Source: Myxococcota bacterium
GTDB taxonomy: Bacteria; Myxococcota_C; UBA6777
Length of the DNA: 11,950 nt
Direction: 5' to 3'
Assembly (NCBI GenBank): GCA_023150835.1
Contig: JAKLKB010000167.1
Location: 1-11,950 of the forward strand
Each line of letters begins with the position of its first letter. Within the stretch, counting starts at the first letter, position 1. Below, in pieces: positions 278 through 11,818 of this stretch. The translations under genes and the position numbers were made by a program. Below the pieces are notes generated by a model that saw only the letters and a program-made list of their open reading frames with translations, was not told the DNA's origin and searched no databases.

Positions 278-2680
278 TCAAGGAAAAATAAGCTGCGTGG
301 AGTCGACTTCTTCGACGACACCCAACAGCGCGTCGTATCGCCCCTGCCAAAGGCACAGATCACCAGCGATCGGCTTGATCAGTTGACGTTGCTGGGCTTG
401 CAAAAAGCTGTGCTGATAAAGCTGCACCACAAAGGGCTGAAACACCCGCATCAACGAAGCAGAAGGCATCTGCGGTGCGTGTTGAAGGATCTGCAATGCC
501 TCTAGCGCGGCTTGAACAGCCCGATCAAACGCCTCGAAAAAAGCCGCGATCGGCTCGGATTCTTGGACCATCTGCTCGCGTTGTGTTTGGAGTACGCGTT
601 GAAGATCCACAGGGTGAACAAAAACAGGCCGCGTATCTTCGGGGATCATCCGATATCTTTCGGAACTGGAAGCAAAGGCAAACTCGCGCTCAAGCCGCCG
701 GATATCGAACGGATCAGTATTCACGGAGTGATAGACTTGGCGGAAATACTGTTGGAAGATGGCGGGATCGTGAAAGTCTGAGGCCCGAAGAGACCGCAAC
801 ATCAACCGCGTCTGATCTGTGGCTGTGGTGTAGATCCCTTGGGGAAGATGCGCTTCTTGAAGCTCGACGATATGGGTTGTTCCCGAGGCGAGGCGAGCTT
901 CGCGATTGCACCGCCCTGCGGCTTGGATCAGGCTATCCAACGGCCCCATCACGCGAAACACCACAGGAAAATCCAGATCCACGCCGGCTTCGACGACTTG
1001 GGTGGCGACAAGACGACAATCCCGCTGCGATCGTCCAAGAACAAACTGAACAGCCTGAAGCACAAAACTCCGATGCAACGGGCACAATCGACTGGACAGG
1101 TGAAAACACCCCTCCATCCCCGAGACTTCTTCGAGCAGCTTCCGTGCGTCTTTGATCGTGTTGAGGATCGCAAGACAACGTGGGGTTTCTGCGATCTCCT
1201 CCGCAAGTTCCTCAAAAGACCAGCGCGGCTCGCCATCTATTGGAAAAGAAAATTCGACTCTTCCCAGCGCTCGGAAATGATCGGCTGGATCACGAACGAT
1301 CTCACGAATACCCGTCAAGGGCGTGAGTTCTTTTGAGGGACGAAGAACCTGATCCGAGAAAGCGGGCTGTGTCGCCGTACAAAAAATCACCGAGCATCCG
1401 AACTCACGGACAAGATAACGCAGCATATCCAAAGTCGGGGCCAACAGCTTGGTGGGTAGCATCTGCACTTCATCAAGGATGATTACGGAGCGCGGGATAT
1501 TGTGCAACTTGCGTAGTTTGCTGTTTCTCGAAGCAAAAAGGCTCTCGAACAATTGGACGTTGGTTGTGACCACGATCGGAGCATCCCAGTTCTCAGCGGC
1601 AAGGCGCTGCCAACGCTCGATGGCGTCGATCACTTCGGCATCGTGAGAGGTTTCGTTGTGTTCGCGGCGGCTGCTGTGATGTTCAAGAACATAGGCCGCC
1701 CCAAAGATCTCCCGATACACCGAGGCATTCTGCTCGATGATGCTGGTGTACGGGATCGCCACGATCACTCGACGCATCCGATGTTTTTGAGCGTGTGCGA
1801 GTGCAAACGCCATCGAAGATCGGGTCTTCCCTCCGCCCGTAGGTACCGTCATTGAAAAAAAGCCGGGGGATTGGTTCGCTGCATCCAGCGCATCTCGATA
1901 GATCTGCTGGCGATGCGCATACAACTCGCCTTGTTGAGGCGTAGCTCCCGAAGGCAACACAAACGCTTGTTGTGCTGCTTGCAAGCGCTGAAAAAGCCAT
2001 GAGACCGCTCCCTCCGTTGGTTCGCCTCGAAGCCGCGCTATTTCGGGGCGATCATGTGCTTGTTCGCTTCGAAGCCGCGATGTTTCGGGGCGATCATGTG
2101 CTTCTGTGTCCAAACAATCCGCATCCACAAGGCACGAATGTAACAAACGCCACGCCAGCGCGACACTCCCTTCCGCATCTTTGCGCATCATATCAAGAGA
2201 CGTCGGTAGCTGCGGAGGCTCTAGGGGAACGTACGCCTCCCACGCTTGGCGCCCCTCTGTTGCGATCTCTCGGATCCAAGTCTGCTCGGCTGCACGGCGC
2301 ACCCGCGAACCCAGATCTGCCTTCACGTCCTGCAATCCGCGATGATGGCAGTCCATCAGATAGGCCAACAGCAGATAGCGCTTGTCTGAAAAGGCATCCA
2401 AAAAAAGCTGCAACGCGACGATCGCATGTTCCAGCTTTTTGCTCGGCTTTCCAGCAACACGCTCCCGAAGATAGTTCTGCCATGCGGGGTTCAACTTCCC
2501 GACATCGTGCCAAAATCCGATCAATCGGGCGGCTTCACTTGCATCGATCGCTTCTGCAAAGCACGCAGCGCGCTCCGAGACCCCAAGAAGATGCTCCAAA
2601 AGACCATGCCATCGCCCTGATGCGTTAGGGCCATGCGCAACGGCCTGCTCGCTATCGATTGAACTCCTCTGTTGTGACAT
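278..2680 (-). CDS. cas3: CRISPR-associated nuclease/helicase Cas3 (HD domain + superfamily 2 helicase)
   Basis: Cas3 is recruited by Cascade in type I CRISPR systems, nicks the displaced strand and degrades DNA 3'-5' while hydrolysing ATP. The 800-residue protein has the fused order HD then helicase. HD residues seen are H30, H58-D59 in FWHDVGK, H85, H112-H113 and D186/D188 in LVDADCLDTE. Helicase motifs are VPTGGGKT (279-286, Walker A), ILDEVQ (401-406, DEAH-type box), CTATQP (434-439), ATQVVEAGVDLD (559-570) and QAAGRCNR (586-593). All key residues are present, so it should be active. The start is set by GGAG six bases before ATG. Length and order fit type I-C-like Cas3, but the subtype is uncertain. 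It is odd that no Cascade or adaptation gene flanks it. A duplicated 14-residue segment lies between the HD and helicase parts. Confidence 0.96.
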   Translation of the reverse strand: MSQQRSSIDSEQAVAHGPNASGRWHGLLEHLLGVSERAACFAEAIDASEAARLIGFWHDVGKLNPAWQNYLRERVAGKPSKKLEHAIVALQLFLDAFSDKRYLLLAYLMDCHHRGLQDVKADLGSRVRRAAEQTWIREIATEGRQAWEAYVPLEPPQLPTSLDMMRKDAEGSVALAWRLLHSCLVDADCLDTEAHDRPETSRLRSEQAHDRPEIARLRGEPTEGAVSWLFQRLQAAQQAFVLPSGATPQQGELYAHRQQIYRDALDAANQSPGFFSMTVPTGGGKTRSSMAFALAHAQKHRMRRVIVAIPYTSIIEQNASVYREIFGAAYVLEHHSSRREHNETSHDAEVIDAIERWQRLAAENWDAPIVVTTNVQLFESLFASRNSKLRKLHNIPRSVIILDEVQMLPTKLLAPTLDMLRYLVREFGCSVIFCTATQPAFSDQVLRPSKELTPLTGIREIVRDPADHFRALGRVEFSFPIDGEPRWSFEELAEEIAETPRCLAILNTIKDARKLLEEVSGMEGCFHLSSRLCPLHRSFVLQAVQFVLGRSQRDCRLVATQVVEAGVDLDFPVVFRVMGPLDSLIQAAGRCNREARLASGTTHIVELQEAHLPQGIYTTATDQTRLMLRSLRASDFHDPAIFQQYFRQVYHSVNTDPFDIRRLEREFAFASSSERYRMIPEDTRPVFVHPVDLQRVLQTQREQMVQESEPIAAFFEAFDRAVQAALEALQILQHAPQMPSASLMRVFQPFVVQLYQHSFLQAQQRQLIKPIAGDLCLWQGRYDALLGVVEEVDSTQLIFP
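2021..2104. repeat. 42-bp tandem duplication inside cas3
   Basis: Two adjacent 42-bp units, 2021-2062 and 2063-2104, differ at only a few positions. In Cas3 they encode AHDRPETSRLRSEQ and AHDRPEIARLRGEP (residues 194-221). They follow directly after the LVDADCLDTE metal-binding segment, in the linker before the helicase. The frame is kept because 42 is a multiple of three. A recent replication-slippage event is the simplest origin. Confidence 0.85.
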
Positions 2681-3122: not shown

Positions 3123-3350
3123 CCAAACCTCCGCTCGGTTTTGCTCGTTCCGAATTTGTAAGACAGCAACCCAAAGCCTTACTCGCAATCCCTGTAAAAC
3201 AACCGCACCCAGTTTTAGCAAACGTCGCTGAAAAACGACAAGGGGCAAACTTTTCTGACGCTCTTGTTTCTTTTGGCACTTCGGATTACCATCCACCCCA
3301 AAAATGCGCTCCCAGACCTCACCCTCCCCAACCACAACAAGGACGACAAG
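3123..3350. promoter_or_regulatory. Divergent intergenic region between the small gene and the DUF3800 operon
   Basis: These 228 bases separate two genes that start in opposite directions, so they should hold promoters for both. No strong sigma-70 promoter pair is evident. The 8-mer CTGACGCT near 3255-3262 recurs once in the gap after the sigma-factor gene (5400-5407). Both copies are followed by a loosely similar T-rich stretch containing TCTTT. This could be an operator or an element for the locally encoded sigma factor, but two short matches are weak evidence. Confidence 0.4.
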
Positions 3351-4541
3351 ATGACCGAGCAACGGTGGGAACTCTATATCGACGAATCTGGAAACTTCTC
3401 TGATCCAAACGATGAAGTCGTGGTCGCCGGACTGTTGGTTCACACCGAGAAAGCCGGCCTTGACGGGCGTGAGATCGCCCAAGCCATCCACACCACGCTC
3501 CCTCACATCCCCCTGCCACTTCACGCCTCGTTTCTCAAACGCCCCAGCTACGGGATCTTTTGCTACGCTTCTGCCCAACAACCCAAAACAGCCCACCACA
3601 CCCGCCAACTCGACCCCAAGCGCATCAAAACCTACGAACAAGCCCTCCAAATCTTAGGCAAAAAAGCCCAAAAAACGCTCACACAAATGACCGACACGCT
3701 TCGACGCGGAAGAAGTCTTTCTGCCTATTACAACGAACTGCACTCATGGGAGACCCAACTCAAACCCCACCCCGATCTCTATAAACAACTCAAACACGAC
3801 CAAGAACTCGATCTCGCGCACATCGCTCGGATCATCCGCGATCTCAACGAAACAACCGATGCCAACCACGCGCTCTTGCTGTTTGCCGCCGAAGAAACAC
3901 GCGCAAGCGCCGTCCAGCCCAAACAAGATCGCTATCTCCTCCTCCTCCTCGCCCTTATCGAACGTGCGTACCGTGTCCTCCACATACGCACACAAGGACA
4001 CTTCCGCCTCGAAATCAAAGTCGCCACACGCGACGTTTACTACGCTCCCTTCAACATCAACATCCGCCTCTCCAACCCGATCTTCAAAGAACTCGAAGCC
4101 CACCTCCGCGCTTGGCTTGGAGCCTTTACCTCTTCAACCGACCACGGCGTGCCCAAATCTCCAGAATGTCCCTTCTCTTTCCATCCTCCCATGCGGTACG
4201 ACCTAGAGATCCCCACTGCACTCGCGCTCGCCGATATCTTTTCCAACACCGCCTACAGCACCCTCCGCAACGGACTCAAGAAACACAAACAACACCTCTC
4301 CCTCGCTCTCTGGAAAACTGCCATCGCCCAACTCATCGGCCAATGGCCGCTCTCCAGCCTTCCGCCTCACTCTCCTGCGGGCCTTTCTCCGCGTAGCCAC
4401 TTCGCCGCAAGCCCCCATATCGCCGACGCTTTGCGTCAAGCCATCCATACCGAACACACCACACAAACCTTCGAACAAGACCCCCGTACACAGAACATCC
4501 GCCTCTGGGCCAAAGAACAAGCCCTCTCTTGGCTCCCCTAG
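3351..4541 (+). CDS. DUF3800 domain protein (RNase H-like fold)
   Basis: DUF3800 proteins have a predicted RNase H-like fold, turn up often in mobile and defence regions, and have no settled biochemical role. The 396-residue product opens with LYIDESGNF (residues 8-16, D11/E12), the family's signature strand with its acidic pair. Other family-like features are the conserved histidine in LHASF (57-61), the DVYYAPFNI strand (228-236) and the ALALADIFSN helix (290-299, D295), equivalent to the usual LQLADLI motif. The ATG at 3351 is preferred over one at 3264 because AAGGA lies seven bases before it and the family signature follows at once. The gene heads the operon, 88 bases before the sigma-factor gene. 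The catalytic acids appear kept, so a nuclease role is possible but unproven. Confidence 0.8.
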   Translation: MTEQRWELYIDESGNFSDPNDEVVVAGLLVHTEKAGLDGREIAQAIHTTLPHIPLPLHASFLKRPSYGIFCYASAQQPKTAHHTRQLDPKRIKTYEQALQILGKKAQKTLTQMTDTLRRGRSLSAYYNELHSWETQLKPHPDLYKQLKHDQELDLAHIARIIRDLNETTDANHALLLFAAEETRASAVQPKQDRYLLLLLALIERAYRVLHIRTQGHFRLEIKVATRDVYYAPFNINIRLSNPIFKELEAHLRAWLGAFTSSTDHGVPKSPECPFSFHPPMRYDLEIPTALALADIFSNTAYSTLRNGLKKHKQHLSLALWKTAIAQLIGQWPLSSLPPHSPAGLSPRSHFAASPHIADALRQAIHTEHTTQTFEQDPRTQNIRLWAKEQALSWLP

Positions 4542-4629
4542 ATCCGAGACCATCGCTTCGACATCCCCGTCACATCCCTTTGTTGAAACGTTTGCGCCCA
4601 AAACCTCATCCGCTCGGAGAACACACACC

Positions 4630-5373
4630 ATGCCACTTCACCTCGCACTTCTGACCCTACAACGCTGGCAATTGGGACTCCCTTACAACAGCGAAGAACT
4701 ATCCCACGCTTGCAAGACTTTTCAGAAAGCCATTCAAAGTGTATGTCGCCGAAAATCGGCTTTTTCTGCGCTATCTTCTTCCGACAAAGAAGAAGTCGAA
4801 TCTGATCTTTTTTCCGTTCTACTCTCTCGACTGAAGCAAGACAAAGATTTCCCCACCGAAAACAAAGCCTACGGATGGCTGATCCTAAGCATCGGCGGGT
4901 TCTTGAAAGATCGCTACGACAAACAAAAACACTTGACCTTTTTCGCTGACTTCCGAAACGACGAACACTCCGATCAAGAACCCGAGTGGCAAGACGATTC
5001 ATCCCCCAATCCCGAAGAGCTACTCGAACAACTCCAACAAACCACCGCACTCGCTGCTTTCCAAAAACAAAAAGATGCCTTTATTGCGAGTTTCTTACAA
5101 ACACTCAGCGAACAAAAACGCCCACAAAAACGCCAAACCATCAAAGAGATGGAAGACATCCACTTTTACCAGACCTGCACGGCTGAAGAACTCGCACAGC
5201 AAAGCGGAAAGAAGACAAATACGCTCCACCAACGCCACTGTCGCTTGCGCGCCGACCTGCAAGCCCACCTGCACGGCCCCCCATGCCAACAGATACCAGC
5301 GCACGAGAGACAGACGCTCTTTGCTTGGCTCGCACTTCTCGACGGAAAACCCGGCATCAAGTACGACCCCTAA
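4630..5373 (+). CDS. ECF-like RNA polymerase sigma factor (CalpS-like candidate)
   Basis: The 247-residue protein has the two-domain shape of a group IV sigma factor. Residues 55-100 look like region 2: a helix around DLFSVLLSRLKQ, then AYGWLILSIGGFLKDRYDKQ, the usual W-L-x-I...D-x-x-(R/D) core helix. An acidic linker with the typical PEELLEQ follows at 128-134. Residues 160-212 look like region 4: TAEELAQQSGKKTNTLHQRH is the DNA-binding helix-turn-helix, ending in RADLQAHL. The 35 residues after region 4 are an extension that could contact a regulator. A GGAG lies ten bases before the ATG. The gene sits upstream of a SAVED-Lon protease, the arrangement of the CalpS-CalpT-CalpL cascade, where the sigma factor is released by proteolysis. 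The sigma identity is from motif shape; the CalpS role is inference. Confidence 0.75.
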   Translation: MPLHLALLTLQRWQLGLPYNSEELSHACKTFQKAIQSVCRRKSAFSALSSSDKEEVESDLFSVLLSRLKQDKDFPTENKAYGWLILSIGGFLKDRYDKQKHLTFFADFRNDEHSDQEPEWQDDSSPNPEELLEQLQQTTALAAFQKQKDAFIASFLQTLSEQKRPQKRQTIKEMEDIHFYQTCTAEELAQQSGKKTNTLHQRHCRLRADLQAHLHGPPCQQIPAHERQTLFAWLALLDGKPGIKYDP

Positions 5374-5519
5374 ACATTTTTTTGCTTCTTGTCAGAAACC
5401 TGACGCTACTGACGTCTTTGAAATAACTGTTGGATACGCACACGCTAGGACTCTTGTTCATTCAAGCCCACTCCTCCAATCCCGCGTATCTGAAATCTCG
5501 ATCAATAGGATAGAATCGT
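5374..5519 (+). promoter_or_regulatory. Gap between sigma-factor gene and the 570-residue gene, with inverted and direct repeats
   Basis: The sequence holds a short palindrome, GTCAG (5391-5395) with CTGAC (5400-5404). It also holds a direct repeat CTGACG (5400-5405 and 5409-5414). The 8-mer CTGACGCT is shared with the operon's upstream region near 3255. Because the sigma factor is encoded just before it, an internal promoter or operator is plausible. No terminator with a clear stem and U-run is seen, although a T-run follows the stop codon of the sigma-factor gene. The functional reading is inference. Confidence 0.35.
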
Positions 5520-7232
5520 ATGTTTACGCTGCCATCTCTCTTTCCAGATCTCCCTCTCAAAGCTTCCACTTCGCCCTTGGCGTGGGACGATCTACCACAA
5601 ATCCCCGAAAGTCGAACCCTCCAAGCAGCTCTCTCTCTGCACGGCTTCGATGACCCAAAACTCGAACAGTGGACCCAAAAGCTCGCAGAGGCCGACCCCG
5701 ATCATACGCATCTTCGCCGTTCCATCGCCCTTTTGACGGGACTCTCGTGCTTTGTCGACCAAGTCGACGAGACATGGCTGCTCTGTCTCCAAGCCCCCAA
5801 AGGTCGTGCCTTGCAGACGCATATCCTCCACGCCCAAGCAGACGCCGTGTTGCAAAATGACACCCAAGACACGCTCGTCCTCCCCAGCTTCAAACCACCC
5901 CAAGCTCTCTGTGTCCATGATGACCTTGGGATCGGCCTTTTGCTCCAATGTGTAGACGGCGCTCTCCAATTCACGCCCATCGCTCGCACACAGCCACAAC
6001 AGGTCCACACGCAAAAGCTCGATGCGTCCGTTCTTTTTGAAGCATTGCCAGAAATCCGCTCCACTGATCCACAGCTAGGACAATGGGTCGAAGAAAAAAT
6101 CCAACAAGGAGACGATTGGTCCACAGCCGTTGCTGCGGGCATGATCGCACGTCTCCCTCATCCTCCAAAAGGTGCTGCCGCTCGCCAGCTTCTTCAATCA
6201 CTCTTACAGGGCACTCCGCCTCCGCCTGCCTCGTGGCAGCTTTTCGTCCAAAGCTGGACAGACCCACAGATCCGATGGATTCAAGCTCTTTTCCAAACCA
6301 AGCTCGCTTCCCTCGCCGAAGAAATCGACCGCTTGATGCTGGCCGACTTCGAGGAATACACCGATGAATCCGAAGCTTCCGACCGCGATGTACCTGTGGA
6401 CTTGCAAGAACCCCACTCGATCCACCAAACGACCCAAGCATCCGCCTCTTCCGTTCCTGATGATAAAGAGGGTTCGCCGCTCTCGAACAACGATGCTCTC
6501 GATCTGTTGCTGCGCCGCGACGAACTCGCAAGTGTCAGTCTTCTTTTACGCGCTCGCGAATCTTTCTCAACATTTTCCGAGCCTCTCGATCTTCTCGATC
6601 AAACAGGCTCCGCATGGGTCCATAGCCTAGACATGACCTCCGATATCTCGCAACATCCGATGCTTCAGCGCATCCTCCAACACGACCCCACTGCATGGTG
6701 GGCCTATCCCGCCGCCACTCGCATCCTCCCCGATATATCGGCTCTCTTGCCCCAAAAACAGATCACCATTCCCTCCGTCACTCGATCAGCCCGTACTCCC
6801 AAAAAACACCCAAAACAAACCACCCCTCTCACCCCTTCTCCGTTGCTGCTCGACCCCGACGTTCTCACCCCTGATCTTGCCCGCCTCTACTGCATCCCCG
6901 TCGCGGCCCCCTCCCTAACGCAACGCTATCTCGCACCCCACGCACGCTCCGCTCCTCCCGCGATTTTCTCTGATTCTATCGCCTACAACAAGTCGCAGGA
7001 ACTCACCCTCCAATCGACACCACACCCCCGCCTCTTTGTGTTCGAAAGCTTCTCCCCAAAACTCAAGAGTTCCGAGATCATGCGCCTCTTCTTCGCAAAA
7101 CAGATGCTCTACGAAGGCCCCCCACAAGAACGCCTTCTTCTCGACTGTTCCTCATGGCAAATCGACTCCGCTGGATCGTTGAACCTCGATATCTTTTGCA
7201 ACGCCCTCCGCGTCGAATGGAGCACCTCATGA
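5520..7232 (+). CDS. Unrecognised 570-residue modular protein; candidate protease target or anti-sigma partner
   Basis: I do not recognise this protein. It appears to have three parts. Residues 30-270 are folded-looking, with helices and strands such as RRSIALLTGLSCFVDQV and ETWLLCLQ. Residues 275-325 are an acidic, Ser/Asp-rich linker (EEYTDESEASDRD). Residues 326-415 form a second helical part (LDLLLRRDELASVSLLLRA), followed by a basic, Pro/Thr-rich linker (420-445). Residues 446-570 form a C-terminal domain with RLFVFESFSP and RLLLDCSSWQI strands. AGGA lies about ten bases before the ATG. Its stop overlaps the next gene's start as ATGA, implying translational coupling to the SAVED-Lon protease. 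In known Calp loci the gene beside calpL encodes the cleaved sigma-factor inhibitor CalpT. This product is about twice that size and shows no resemblance I can see. The exposed linkers suit a cleavage substrate; the role is inferred. Confidence 0.75.
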   Translation: MFTLPSLFPDLPLKASTSPLAWDDLPQIPESRTLQAALSLHGFDDPKLEQWTQKLAEADPDHTHLRRSIALLTGLSCFVDQVDETWLLCLQAPKGRALQTHILHAQADAVLQNDTQDTLVLPSFKPPQALCVHDDLGIGLLLQCVDGALQFTPIARTQPQQVHTQKLDASVLFEALPEIRSTDPQLGQWVEEKIQQGDDWSTAVAAGMIARLPHPPKGAAARQLLQSLLQGTPPPPASWQLFVQSWTDPQIRWIQALFQTKLASLAEEIDRLMLADFEEYTDESEASDRDVPVDLQEPHSIHQTTQASASSVPDDKEGSPLSNNDALDLLLRRDELASVSLLLRARESFSTFSEPLDLLDQTGSAWVHSLDMTSDISQHPMLQRILQHDPTAWWAYPAATRILPDISALLPQKQITIPSVTRSARTPKKHPKQTTPLTPSPLLLDPDVLTPDLARLYCIPVAAPSLTQRYLAPHARSAPPAIFSDSIAYNKSQELTLQSTPHPRLFVFESFSPKLKSSEIMRLFFAKQMLYEGPPQERLLLDCSSWQIDSAGSLNLDIFCNALRVEWSTS

Positions 7233-8776
7233 TCCTGCACATCATCAAACGCTACCGCGAAACCCAACGCCCCGATCTTCTCGACCAGATACTCGCCACT
7301 CTCCGAGAACCTTGCTCGATAAAAGATTTATGCGAAATATTCGCTTTATTCTCAGAACAAGATATTTATCAAGAGCAGCTTTTTTTTGCTTTATTTCTCC
7401 ATCTCCGACAATTTTCTTTGCATTACCCCCCCCCACAACTCGCCGAACTTTGCGGCCTCGATACGCCCTTTGCGTCACAGATCTTTTCTTCTCCTCCCTC
7501 CATTCTCCGAAAGATCACTTTCCCTATCGCCAACGAACAACAAGCCGACCTCTGCACCGCCTACATCATCCCGCTCCAAGACGACGGACCATCCGTCTTG
7601 TGGGGGCCTGTCTCCACACACACCACCTTACAAAAACGCGACCAAGACCTCCAGCGCATCCAAACCGCCACCCAAAAACGCTTTTTCGTAGCTTTCGACA
7701 AAGACTTCACAGATCGCTCTTTTATGCTCGCCCTCGCTGCGGCTTTGTTGCTAGACCGACCCGATCAATGGGACCCATTCGCTTTTTCCGGTGAGATCGA
7801 CCACGCAGGCCATATCCTCGACGTTGGCTACATGGAAGCCAAACAAGCCGTCTGCAAAAAACACCACAAAAAACTCCTCTCCGCCCAAATCTTCCAACAC
7901 CTCGACGAGATCCGCTTCTGGCTCTCGGGTTCCCCTCTCCCTCTTCCCTCCCTCTTCTTAGCCAAGTCCCTTTCCCACGGGCAAAACGCCCTTCAAACCA
8001 TCGAAAAGACGATCCAACGAAGATATCCTTTCTTTCGGATCGATACGCTTTGCGCTCTCTTTGGCTTTCAACGCCAAGACTTCTTGCTCTGCCACGAAGA
8101 CCGCCTCCCCGACGATCCCGAATATTGGAAGCGCTATCTACAAAACGGCGTGCGTCTGCACTTTGAACGCCTACTTTATACGGCTCCTGATCACTCGTTT
8201 GTCTTGCACGCCGCGTCTTCCATTATCGCTCTTACTGTAGGCATCGGCTCCCTGCTTGGCGCAAAACGACCGATCGTCCTCTACCACTTCCAAAACAACG
8301 ACTACTACCCCGTCATCGACCTTTCACAAAACAACATCCGCGAACTCAAAGCCATCCTCCCCGAAACATCGGATGAATCACGCCTCCTTTGCATCCAGCC
8401 ACAAGCCGACGGCCCAAAGCACATCGTCGGGATCTACCTCGCAAGCCACGATCCCTTCGGTGCTTGCAATACCATGCTGCAACAATACGGAGACGGATGG
8501 GGTTTCACCTTTCTCTCCCCTCCCCAACATCAAGGAAATCTCCCACTCTCCGCCGATTGGCTCCCTTATGTCCGCGAGATCTACTCATTTCTCAACCGCC
8601 TCAGCCGCTCAAGCGTAAGTGAAATGCACCTTGTCCTCAGTGTTCCTATCCCCATCTCCTACGCTTTGGGCATGGCCTGTGGGCATTTTTTTCATGCCTA
8701 TGTCTATAATTTTAACCCGACAACCAAAGAATACACCCGCGTCCTCGCCCTCCACGAACACCCCAGCCCCTTTTAA
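7229..8776 (+). CDS. calpL: SAVED domain protein with Lon-like protease domain (CalpL-like)
   Basis: CalpL proteins bind cyclic oligoadenylate through a C-terminal SAVED domain and use a Lon-type Ser-Lys protease to cut a partner. This 515-residue product fits. Residues 1-95 are helical and unassigned. Residues 150-245 resemble the Lon proteolytic domain: DRSFMLALAAALLL matches the PSAGLALALAL serine helix (S164), AFSGEIDHAGHILDVG matches the AxTGEID-x-x-G-x-V-x-x-V-G block, and YMEAKQAV carries K205. The 41-residue S-K spacing is close to the 43 of E. coli Lon (S679/K722). Residues 315-510 resemble SAVED: HAASSIIALTVGIGSLLG, PIVLYHF, and EMHLVLSVPIPISYALG followed by AYVYNF. The start overlaps the upstream stop (ATGA). 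Codons around 7315-7440 are A/T-richer than the rest, with runs of eight T and nine C. The SAVED call is firmer than the Lon call, because the residues around S164 are divergent. Confidence 0.75.
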   Translation: MILHIIKRYRETQRPDLLDQILATLREPCSIKDLCEIFALFSEQDIYQEQLFFALFLHLRQFSLHYPPPQLAELCGLDTPFASQIFSSPPSILRKITFPIANEQQADLCTAYIIPLQDDGPSVLWGPVSTHTTLQKRDQDLQRIQTATQKRFFVAFDKDFTDRSFMLALAAALLLDRPDQWDPFAFSGEIDHAGHILDVGYMEAKQAVCKKHHKKLLSAQIFQHLDEIRFWLSGSPLPLPSLFLAKSLSHGQNALQTIEKTIQRRYPFFRIDTLCALFGFQRQDFLLCHEDRLPDDPEYWKRYLQNGVRLHFERLLYTAPDHSFVLHAASSIIALTVGIGSLLGAKRPIVLYHFQNNDYYPVIDLSQNNIRELKAILPETSDESRLLCIQPQADGPKHIVGIYLASHDPFGACNTMLQQYGDGWGFTFLSPPQHQGNLPLSADWLPYVREIYSFLNRLSRSSVSEMHLVLSVPIPISYALGMACGHFFHAYVYNFNPTTKEYTRVLALHEHPSPF

Positions 8777-8790
8777 CTTCATAGCGACTT

Positions 8791-8904
8791 ATACGAAATC
8801 CGCCCATTGTGTGATCGTAAAACGTAGGGGCAGACAGGTGTGGCTGCCCAACCGTAGGGCATCTACGCACTATCCTTCGATCACACATCTTGCGGATATC
8901 GTAT
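8791..8904. mobile_element. MITE-like palindromic element, copy 1
   Basis: The ends are 27-base imperfect inverted repeats, 8791-8817 and 8878-8904. They share ATACGA, ATCCGC and GTGTGATCG when one is reverse-complemented. The interior carries GGGGCAG...CTGCCC (8826-8849), which forms its own hairpin. Small size, terminal inverted repeats and lack of coding capacity fit a non-autonomous element. No target-site duplication was identified with confidence. Confidence 0.6.
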
Positions 8905-8923
8905 TATGCAATTCGGTAGATAT

Positions 8924-9047
8924 GTGGGGCATTGCCCCTCGCCCCACAAAGCGTGATGGCCCCCTTGACCCCGTATTGGCGAAAAGACCTATCGTTTTCC
9001 GCCCAACAACTCTGTCGCTTGATGCCGCACGAACACGGCTTTTTTTT
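8924..9047. repeat. Dispersed intergenic repeat, family 2, copy 1
   Basis: It opens with the hairpin GTGGGGC (8924-8930) and GCCCCAC (8941-8947). A 23-base block at 8959-8981 is identical to 10450-10472. A second shared stretch at 9005-9022 (AACAACTCTGTCGCTTGA) matches 10497-10514 with two differences. Spacing between the blocks is the same to within one base in both copies, so they descend from one element of about 120 bp. Confidence 0.65.
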
Positions 9048-9056
9048 CAACTTTTT

Positions 9057-9179
9057 ATACGAAATCTGCTCGTTGTGTGATAAGAATATGTAGGGGCAGC
9101 CCCCTGTGGCTGCCCAACAACAGGACCGCGACAGCAAACCGTGGCGACGTTTCGCATACACCTCTCTCGGATATCGGGC
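9057..9179. mobile_element. MITE-like palindromic element, copy 2 (right end degraded)
   Basis: The first 62 bases align without gaps to copy 1 at about 50 positions, including ATACGAAATC, TTGTGTGAT, GTAGGGGCAG and TGTGGCTGCCCAAC. Here the interior hairpin is better paired: GGGCAGCC with GGCTGCCC. The right arm is recognisable only by GGATATCG (9169-9176), preceded by a loosely matching stretch, so this copy seems older. Confidence 0.5.
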
Positions 9180-9219: not shown

Positions 9220-10338
9220 TCAATGTAGCCCTTCGCCAAGCTCCAATAGCACGATCTGAGAGCCCAAGTCTTGACAAAACACTCTTTCCGCAGAACCGTC
9301 CGCCCACGCATCAAACTCATGCGTCGCGGGTGGACGTGGGTTGCCTTGGAGCGATTTGTAGTCCAAACGCCGAATCGATCTCTGACGATTTCCGTAAACA
9401 TAACGCGCCAGATCGTCTATGCGCTCGTTCAACATCACCCTGCGATCTTCCGCCAAGCCTCTTGTACTTCTAAGAAAATGAGATCCAAAGACGATCGTTT
9501 CGAGCGGAGCAGCAAAAACCTCCGTCCGATAAATGGTTTTTTTCGTCTCGTTCCACACCAATTGGCCCCACGCTGAAAGCGTTGCGTCATCGCCTACAAA
9601 CAACAACAACGTTTCCGCGATGCCCTCACAAGACTCTCGCGGATACTGGCCAAATGCCGACAAGCAGCGAAATGCGTTCAGATGTTCCCGAACATGATGC
9701 TCAAAATCCAACCGCACAGGCAGCTTCGGGAGTCGCAAAAGTTCTTGCCCTGATTCGAAAATGTAGATGCTCTCGTCCGCATAAAACATCGCCAAACTTT
9801 GCAAAAATCCTTGAATACTTTTGAATCCACCCGTCAAATTAAACAAGATCCGATAACCATTTTCCCGATAAGCCACCAATTCCGTTGCGCACCATTGCGC
9901 AAGATCCGCCATCCCTGCCTGAAATCCTTCGAGGCTGTCTGTGCGCAAACCACCGATATCTTCTTTGAACACCACTTGATGCCCTTGCGCCTCAAGCCAA
10001 GCCGCCACCACTCGCGCTGATTGCCGACCCAGCCATGTATCCGTGCATAGCAAACAATGGATATCTGGACGGCCTTTGCGACCTGCGACTTTTTCCTCTT
10101 CAAGCCTGTTGAGCGCGTTTAATTCCGCACTCAAGCGGCAAGCATCCCCAACAGTCGCTTCCCGAAATCTCTCCCGCCGCTTTTCGATATGTTCCTCCAA
10201 TCTCCCTCGCACCTCCTCAGATATCTCTTCGCCTGATCTCGCATTGGCATTCGCAAAAATCGCCGAGCGCAATTCATTGGAGACATCATTCGTCAAAGAA
10301 CTCGTCCCACACGGTGAAAGAATAAACTTTGCAAACAT
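9220..10338 (-). CDS. CARF domain protein with RelE-like C-terminus (Cami1-like cOA-activated mRNA interferase)
   Basis: Proteins of this design sense cyclic oligoadenylate made by type III CRISPR complexes; the CARF-RelE protein Cami1 then cleaves mRNA at the ribosome. Residues 1-205 match the APE2256-type CARF family: FILSPCGTSSLTN (5-17), a LLCTDTWLGR strand (96-105) and FNLTGGFKSIQGF (166-178) with FYADESIYIFE after it. Residues 206-280 are a linker region of possible winged-helix type. Residues 284-372 resemble RelE: FGSHFLRS, RSIRRLDYKSL (320-330), THEFDAW (339-345), RVFC (352-355) and a C-terminal LGEGLH. AGGAG lies about seven bases before the ATG. It stands alone on the minus strand, converging on the SAVED-Lon operon. 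CARF is clear; the RelE assignment is probable; the catalytic residues need structural alignment. Confidence 0.82.
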   Translation of the reverse strand: MFAKFILSPCGTSSLTNDVSNELRSAIFANANARSGEEISEEVRGRLEEHIEKRRERFREATVGDACRLSAELNALNRLEEEKVAGRKGRPDIHCLLCTDTWLGRQSARVVAAWLEAQGHQVVFKEDIGGLRTDSLEGFQAGMADLAQWCATELVAYRENGYRILFNLTGGFKSIQGFLQSLAMFYADESIYIFESGQELLRLPKLPVRLDFEHHVREHLNAFRCLSAFGQYPRESCEGIAETLLLFVGDDATLSAWGQLVWNETKKTIYRTEVFAAPLETIVFGSHFLRSTRGLAEDRRVMLNERIDDLARYVYGNRQRSIRRLDYKSLQGNPRPPATHEFDAWADGSAERVFCQDLGSQIVLLELGEGLH

Positions 10339-10575
10339 TTTCCTCTCCTTTTCTTCTTCTTTGTTTCAGTCTTCTTTTGTTTTCTGCTTGGGCGGACGTA
10401 TTTGGGTTTGATCGGTGGGGTTCCACACCACGCCCCGCAAGGGAGCAAAGCCCCCTTGACCCCGTATTGGCGGGACAATCCGACGTGTTTCAAATCAACA
10501 GCTCTGCCGCTTGAACTTCCTCGAACTCGGGGTTCTTGTCAACCACGCAAATCCGACGGCTTATCAAAAAGAGCC
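10339..10575. other. Repeat-containing gap with no gene
   Basis: This gap lies between the start of the Cami1-like gene and the end of the gene upstream on the same strand. Roughly half of it is the family 2 repeat (10415-10536). The bases next to the start (10339-10390) are pyrimidine-rich on the plus strand, that is, purine-rich in the transcript leader, and include the ribosome binding site. No clear sigma-70 promoter is seen. Confidence 0.45.
10415..10536. repeat. Dispersed intergenic repeat, family 2, copy 2
   Basis: The unit has the same orientation as the copy at 8924-9047. It shares the 23-base identical block (10450-10472) and AACAGCTCTGCCGCTTGA (10497-10514). It opens with GTGGGG and CGCCCC. 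The two copies bracket the Cami1-like gene as direct repeats about 1.5 kb apart. Confidence 0.65.
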
Positions 10576-11530: not shown

Positions 11531-11818
11531 CTAGCCCTCTTGGACCAAGTTCAAAAATGTGTCGTAAAGTTCGGAGCTTAAACGAAAACCAGATCGTTGA
11601 ACAAGCTCGTCTAATAACGGTTTTGCCAAAGGAACAAAGCCCTTGTGTTTTGCTTCGATCAATATGCCCAACACCCCGATCACATTCAAATTACATCGTT
11701 TCGCAACCTGTCTTCCCCGCCTTTCATCCATCAACAAAAGTCCCGCGTTTAATTCTGTGGCGAGAACGATCGCTTCCGCTTCGCCTCTGTCCAATTCTCC
11801 TTCGAGTGCTCTTACTGG
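11531..11818 (-). pseudogene. DUF3368 / PIN-like toxin, 5'-truncated
   Basis: DUF3368 proteins are PIN-fold relatives of VapC toxins, usually about 150-165 residues. The remnant keeps the C-terminal half: [38 protein letters not shown] and [15 protein letters not shown] match the family pattern in order. A TTG at 11794 gives an 87-residue frame. In the same frame PVRALEGE precedes it and also looks like family sequence, so homology runs to 11818 and stops at a TAA (11819-11821). That stop falls at the edge of a palindromic element. The N-terminal half with the first catalytic Asp is missing and is not found in the remaining bases to the window's right end. It is probably inactive. Confidence 0.78.

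Follow-up and report, generated by a model that had tools for sequence, protein, structure and literature searches.

A CalpL protease beside an unrelated-looking 570-residue protein suggests a new target for a CRISPR-associated protease

Which protein does a CalpL protease act upon when the gene directly in front of it does not look like CalpT? The question is raised by an 11,950-nucleotide stretch of DNA (the window), which is a complete contig (C114) of a 7.6-Mb Myxococcota genome and carries, in order on its plus strand, genes for an ECF-like sigma factor, for a 570-residue protein that we call the orphan, and for a Lon-SAVED protease (Table 1). To our knowledge, a single family of substrates has been described for CalpL. 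An earlier note on this DNA had proposed a divergent Calp-type module here, and the three open reading frames were indeed found in that order, the last two being joined by an ATGA at 7229-7232 in which the stop codon of the orphan gene overlaps the calpL start. This arrangement is the Calp gene order, as the sampled CalpL loci show. We consider it probable that the locus encodes a Calp-type cascade in which an unrelated-looking protein has either taken the place of CalpT or been remodelled from it. The narrower claim, that CalpL swapped CalpT for a non-homologous substrate and anti-sigma factor, possibly together with its sigma factor, is a serious prospect that we would put somewhat short of even.

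Table 1. Features of the window, with positions counted from its first nucleotide.
Feature	Position	Strand	Basis
Cas3 gene, type I-C affinity	278-2680	-	
Possible DUF3800-like gene	3264-4541	+	YIDESGNF motif read by eye; Pfam, E 0.09
Gene for an ECF-like sigma factor (247 aa), in the place of CalpS	4630-5373	+	profile matches, residues 26-214
Leader of 146 nt separating the sigma and orphan genes; putative regulatory element	5374-5519	+	
Orphan, 570 aa, in the place of CalpT; presumed to hold sigma and to be the substrate of CalpL	5520-7232	+	
Rapidly evolving linker of the orphan (residues about 275-322), candidate zone of cleavage	6342-6485	+	
Proline-rich stretch of the orphan (residues about 404-460), another candidate zone of cleavage	6729-6899	+	read from sequence
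CalpL: Lon protease domain and C-terminal SAVED domain, 515 aa	7229-8776	+	
Ser164 codon, catalytic serine (SsCalpL S152)	7718-7720	+	invariant 43/43 relatives
Lys205 codon, catalytic lysine (SsCalpL K193)	7841-7843	+	invariant 43/43 relatives
His407 codon (SsCalpL H392, ring-nuclease/cA4 site)	8447-8449	+	conserved 40/43
CARF-RelE (Cami1-like) effector gene	9220-10338	-	PADLOC 3e-117
DUF3368 (PIN/VapC-associated) fragment	11531-11794	-	Pfam 3e-17; contig end

The protease matched the PADLOC models SAVED_LON_TM (PDLC02010; 1e-93, residues 30-509) and CRISPR-Lon (7e-77), and its matches in the PDB were CalpL of Sulfurihydrogenibium (7qda, 1.3e-47) and of C. acidaminovorans (9eyi, 2.4e-34). The C-terminal SAVED-like domain that had been read from the letters was recovered by Pfam (SAVED, residues 328-507, E 7e-12). 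Likewise, the proposed Ser164/Lys205 pair, 41 residues apart, was invariant among the relatives and aligned with the catalytic pair of the solved CalpL, from which alignment the SsCalpL numbering of the pair is taken. The alignment with 43 relatives showed that the cA4/ring-nuclease residues H353, R371, K374, S406, H407 and S471 are kept. They are equivalent to H345, R361, K364, S391, H392 and S451 of SsCalpL, several of which were mutated in the ring-nuclease study that is the source for the role of H392 (PMC11417357). Two further SsCalpL positions differ: H474 is replaced by N494, as it is by asparagine in 25/43 relatives, and S325 aligns with I333. Against a profile built from Aquificota CalpL only, the window protease scored 333 bits, the top of the non-Aquificota CalpLs (range 240-333), and in a tree it grouped within the CalpL radiation, with a long branch of 1.41 and at an exact position that is uncertain. 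A scan of genome contigs with CalpL returned a single locus. Judged by profile, solved structure, tree and catalytic and cA4 residues, all of them read at the sequence level, the protease is a true, orthologous CalpL. The protease has been described before; what is new is its partner. Its top score among the non-Aquificota CalpLs places the novelty in the middle gene and, in part, in the sigma gene, and it is to these, not to the protease, that the description of the module as divergent applies.

CalpL loci were gathered from genomes of three or more phyla, the sample being weighted towards a small number of thermophile and Cloacimonadota phyla (the labels Aquificota and Cloacimonadota were read from Sulfurihydrogenibium and Cloacimonas matches). 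A CalpT homologue, 258-319 residues in length where complete, lies directly before calpL in 44/44 loci with enough upstream DNA, a count that leaves out three loci cut by a contig end or broken in frame, and a sigma-like gene precedes CalpT in the sampled loci where longer DNA is present. No CalpL was detected when 195 genomes from another phylum with large genomes were searched. Because CalpT stands before calpL throughout, with a sigma gene ahead of it, the orphan, directly upstream of calpL and overlapping it, occupies the substrate position with the overlap kept. The window is the only exception in this position among the collected CalpL loci.

One explanation for this exception is an orphan descended from a genuine CalpT, altered and lengthened so much that sequence comparison no longer finds it, with the standard Calp fold and mechanism retained. 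Its position and the ATGA overlap agree with such an origin, and its C-terminus, KQMLYEGPPQERLLL, resembles the CalpT ending VFEGxLPKKLIL. However, this likeness scored above about 93-96% of shuffles, which is not significant, and it was rejected. The length of the orphan is also outside the CalpT range and about double it. In a leave-clade-out control, a CalpT profile was built from Aquificota sequences only and tested on other phyla, where it gave 35-78 bits for Cloacimonadota CalpT and 99 bits for CalpT of a further phylum (G100), with no shuffle as high. By contrast, the same profile gave noise only against the orphan, taken whole and by domain and compared with shuffles, which bears out the earlier remark that the middle gene is unlike known CalpT. 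The window CalpL is, if anything, closer than the CalpLs of those phyla. Given that CalpT of other phyla is detectable while the window CalpL is top-scoring, this is an ordinary protease whose presumed substrate is either new or too diverged to be recognised, and we regard a hidden CalpT as a tentative possibility on the unlikely side.

Similarity searches with the orphan returned no match in Pfam, PADLOC and NCBIfam (E <= 1), in PHROGs (E <= 0.1), in plasmids by tblastn (E <= 0.1) or in IMG/VR contigs. One meaningless match was obtained in the PDB, and a search of 386 genomes yielded the copy in a genome of the same genus (L004) and one chance match across a stop codon, with nothing else. CalpT is built of a MazF-like fold, CalpT23, and of CalpT10, which binds CalpL. 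For the orphan, AlphaFold gave no usable model of the full-length protein (pLDDT 34), and a conserved helical fragment (residues 161-279), modelled at 62, had no significant PDB fold match.

Comparison with the same-genus copy indicates, from the pattern of codon changes, that the orphan is a real gene under purifying selection, with dN/dS of 0.11 for residues 166-275 and 0.18 for residues 323-403. Between these conserved blocks, the linker of residues 276-322 has a dN/dS of 0.56 and 53% identity between the two hosts. The proline-rich stretch is a candidate cleavage zone by analogy, its position being similar to that of the linker/cleavage region of Csx30 at residues 377-429 (PMC10028731). 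The leader in front of the orphan gene shows only 2 differences from the same-genus genome in its last ~70 nt before the ATG. TTGAAA-like words were observed upstream of both the sigma gene and the orphan gene, and together with the conserved leader they offer a lead for an autoregulated promoter; promoter and terminator scans of the module found no convincing sigma-70 promoter.

That a conserved leader separates the two genes, and that no anti-sigma domain was detected in the orphan, would also agree with the orphan being a protease-activated effector (a toxin or an enzyme) instead of an anti-sigma factor, with the sigma gene regulated separately. The orphan matches no known effector domain in Pfam, PADLOC, NCBIfam or PHROGs either, however, and all other sampled Calp loci have a gene of the CalpT anti-sigma family at its position, so that we consider an effector unlikely.

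The sigma gene was assigned to the ECF-like class by the earlier note, an assignment that profile matches uphold as real but distant. The protein matched TIGR02937 (sigma70-ECF) at 2.7e-6 over residues 29-213, which counts as sigma-70 family similarity across regions 2 and 4, and, as its best profile, NF041236 (type III-E sigma) at 1e-6, both below the curated cut-offs; a PHROG sigma model gave 8e-4 and the Pfam sigma models none at E <= 1. An Aquificota CalpS profile scored it at 12.5 bits, a value that 0/2000 shuffles reached, compared with 9-59 bits for CalpS of other phyla and -0.2 for E. coli RpoE. The gene may be a CalpS that has diverged, or it may have been swapped along with the substrate. 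Separately, its codons 1-75 (4630-4854) differ from the same-genus copy with a dS of 1.55 and the remainder with a dS of 0.26, which suggests that recombination has replaced a patch of sigma region 2.

The preference of this protein for the III-E sigma model raises the possibility that CalpL acquired a type III-E-like pair, namely an anti-sigma factor of Csx30 type and its CASP-sigma, so that two known protease pathways would share one substrate family. The same model matched other CalpS proteins at 0.002, at 0.02 or not at all, and was absent from the best 25 profiles of E. coli RpoE. In addition, the orphan, at 570 residues, is close in length to the Csx30 model (560 positions) and has a similarly placed linker (PMC10028731). 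By contrast, the sigma match lies far under the cut-off and the same-genus sigma orthologue reached only 0.013. The identification of the orphan as Csx30 was rejected, as it had no Csx30 match in NCBIfam at E <= 1; Csx30 (NF041234, E <= 10) and Csx31 (NF041235) gave no match in the genome. A captured III-E pair is therefore quite improbable in our judgement.

The module is variable within the genus, since L004 has a partial orphan, has lost the DUF3800-like gene and yielded no CalpL. In its orphan copy (4316-5115), residues 6-165 are absent with the frame kept, and the sequence departs from that of the window beyond about residue 403, close to a contig end; these differences may be biological or stem from the assembly. 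The L004 genome without CalpL is 86% complete. With this segment and CalpL both missing, that relative may be able to do without the module or may be losing it. These losses might suggest that the window too holds a degrading remnant without present function, but its three genes are intact, the conserved orphan blocks are constrained as described above and the active-site residues are kept, making a remnant highly doubtful. The DUF3800-like gene is mostly deleted in L004.

We thus return to a Calp-type cascade with a replaced or rebuilt CalpT, and to how it would be switched on. No type III cas genes are present on the window contig. Elsewhere in the genome, two Cas10 genes with GGDD motifs were found, one (YAGGDD, C111) in a Cmr-type, III-B-like locus and one (LLGGDD, C44) with several Csm/III-D-like RAMP genes, the subtypes being assigned by eye. 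The CARF-RelE gene 0.4 kb downstream of calpL encodes a member of a cA4-responsive family (PMC11229360). Given these two Cas10 genes and the adjoining cA4-family effector, supply of cA4 in trans is plausible from the gene content. In the proposed cascade, type III Cas10 complexes, presumably active in view of their intact GGDD motifs, would sense phage RNA and make cA4. By homology to the solved CalpL, cA4 would bind the SAVED domain of the protease, leading to oligomerisation and to activation of the Lon Ser164-Lys205 dyad. The protease would then cut the 570-residue partner, probably at one of its two linkers, and release the ECF-like sigma factor to reprogramme transcription; the binding of sigma by the orphan and its cleavage are inferred, the release of sigma from the gene order. 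Finally, the SAVED domain, whose ring-nuclease residues are kept, would degrade cA4 and reset the system.

Compared with the CalpL-CalpT-CalpS system of Sulfurihydrogenibium (7qda, 8b0r; PMC11417357), the window shares an orthologous Lon-SAVED protease with the catalytic dyad and the main cA4 residues kept, and the order sigma-substrate-protease. It differs in a substrate of 570 instead of about 260-320 residues with no detectable CalpT similarity, in a sigma factor only remotely related to CalpS, and in a contig devoid of type III cas genes. The Cloacimonas acidaminovorans system (9eyi-9eyk) likewise has a Lon-SAVED protease by a sigma gene and a CARF-RelE-type gene nearby, but its locus (L036) has a normal 299-residue CalpT. 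The logic of a sigma factor released by a protease is also that of type III-E CASP (Csx29/Cas7-11, Csx30, CASP-sigma; PMC10028731), in which Csx30, of about 565 residues, has linker-separated domains and whose sigma model tops the profiles of the window sigma. By contrast, the protease of that system is a CHAT protease activated by RNA, whereas that of the window is a Lon-SAVED protease activated, by homology, by cA4, and the window genome has no Csx30 or Csx31 match.

A true CalpL next to an unrelated-looking partner represents a natural experiment on substrate recognition and suggests a protease wired to a new target. It also suggests that CRISPR proteases could be re-plugged into new sigma switches, at which the parallel of type III-E Csx30 and CASP-sigma hints. 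If CalpT has indeed been swapped, the cA4-activated protease would be transferable, as a module, from one transcription switch to another, and the swapped parts could reveal how substrates are chosen. For tools that sense cA4, the orphan also adds a new candidate among cleavable linkers.

Several minor observations concern the neighbouring genes. A CARF-RelE-type gene was also seen, by eye, near CalpL in Cloacimonas (L036, 5492-6583), a hint of recurrent pairing of two cA4 effectors, CalpL and CARF-RelE. In cas3, a 42-nt tandem duplication (93% identical) is found at 2020-2103, and the L004 cas3 has a different repeated peptide at this place, suggesting that the site is a variable linker. The CARF-RelE gene of the window is flanked by repeat pairs of 81% and 73% identity (8789-9118; 8919-8981 / 10410-10472) and has an 81% inverted repeat beside it at 8791-8904; these repeats may be small mobile elements.
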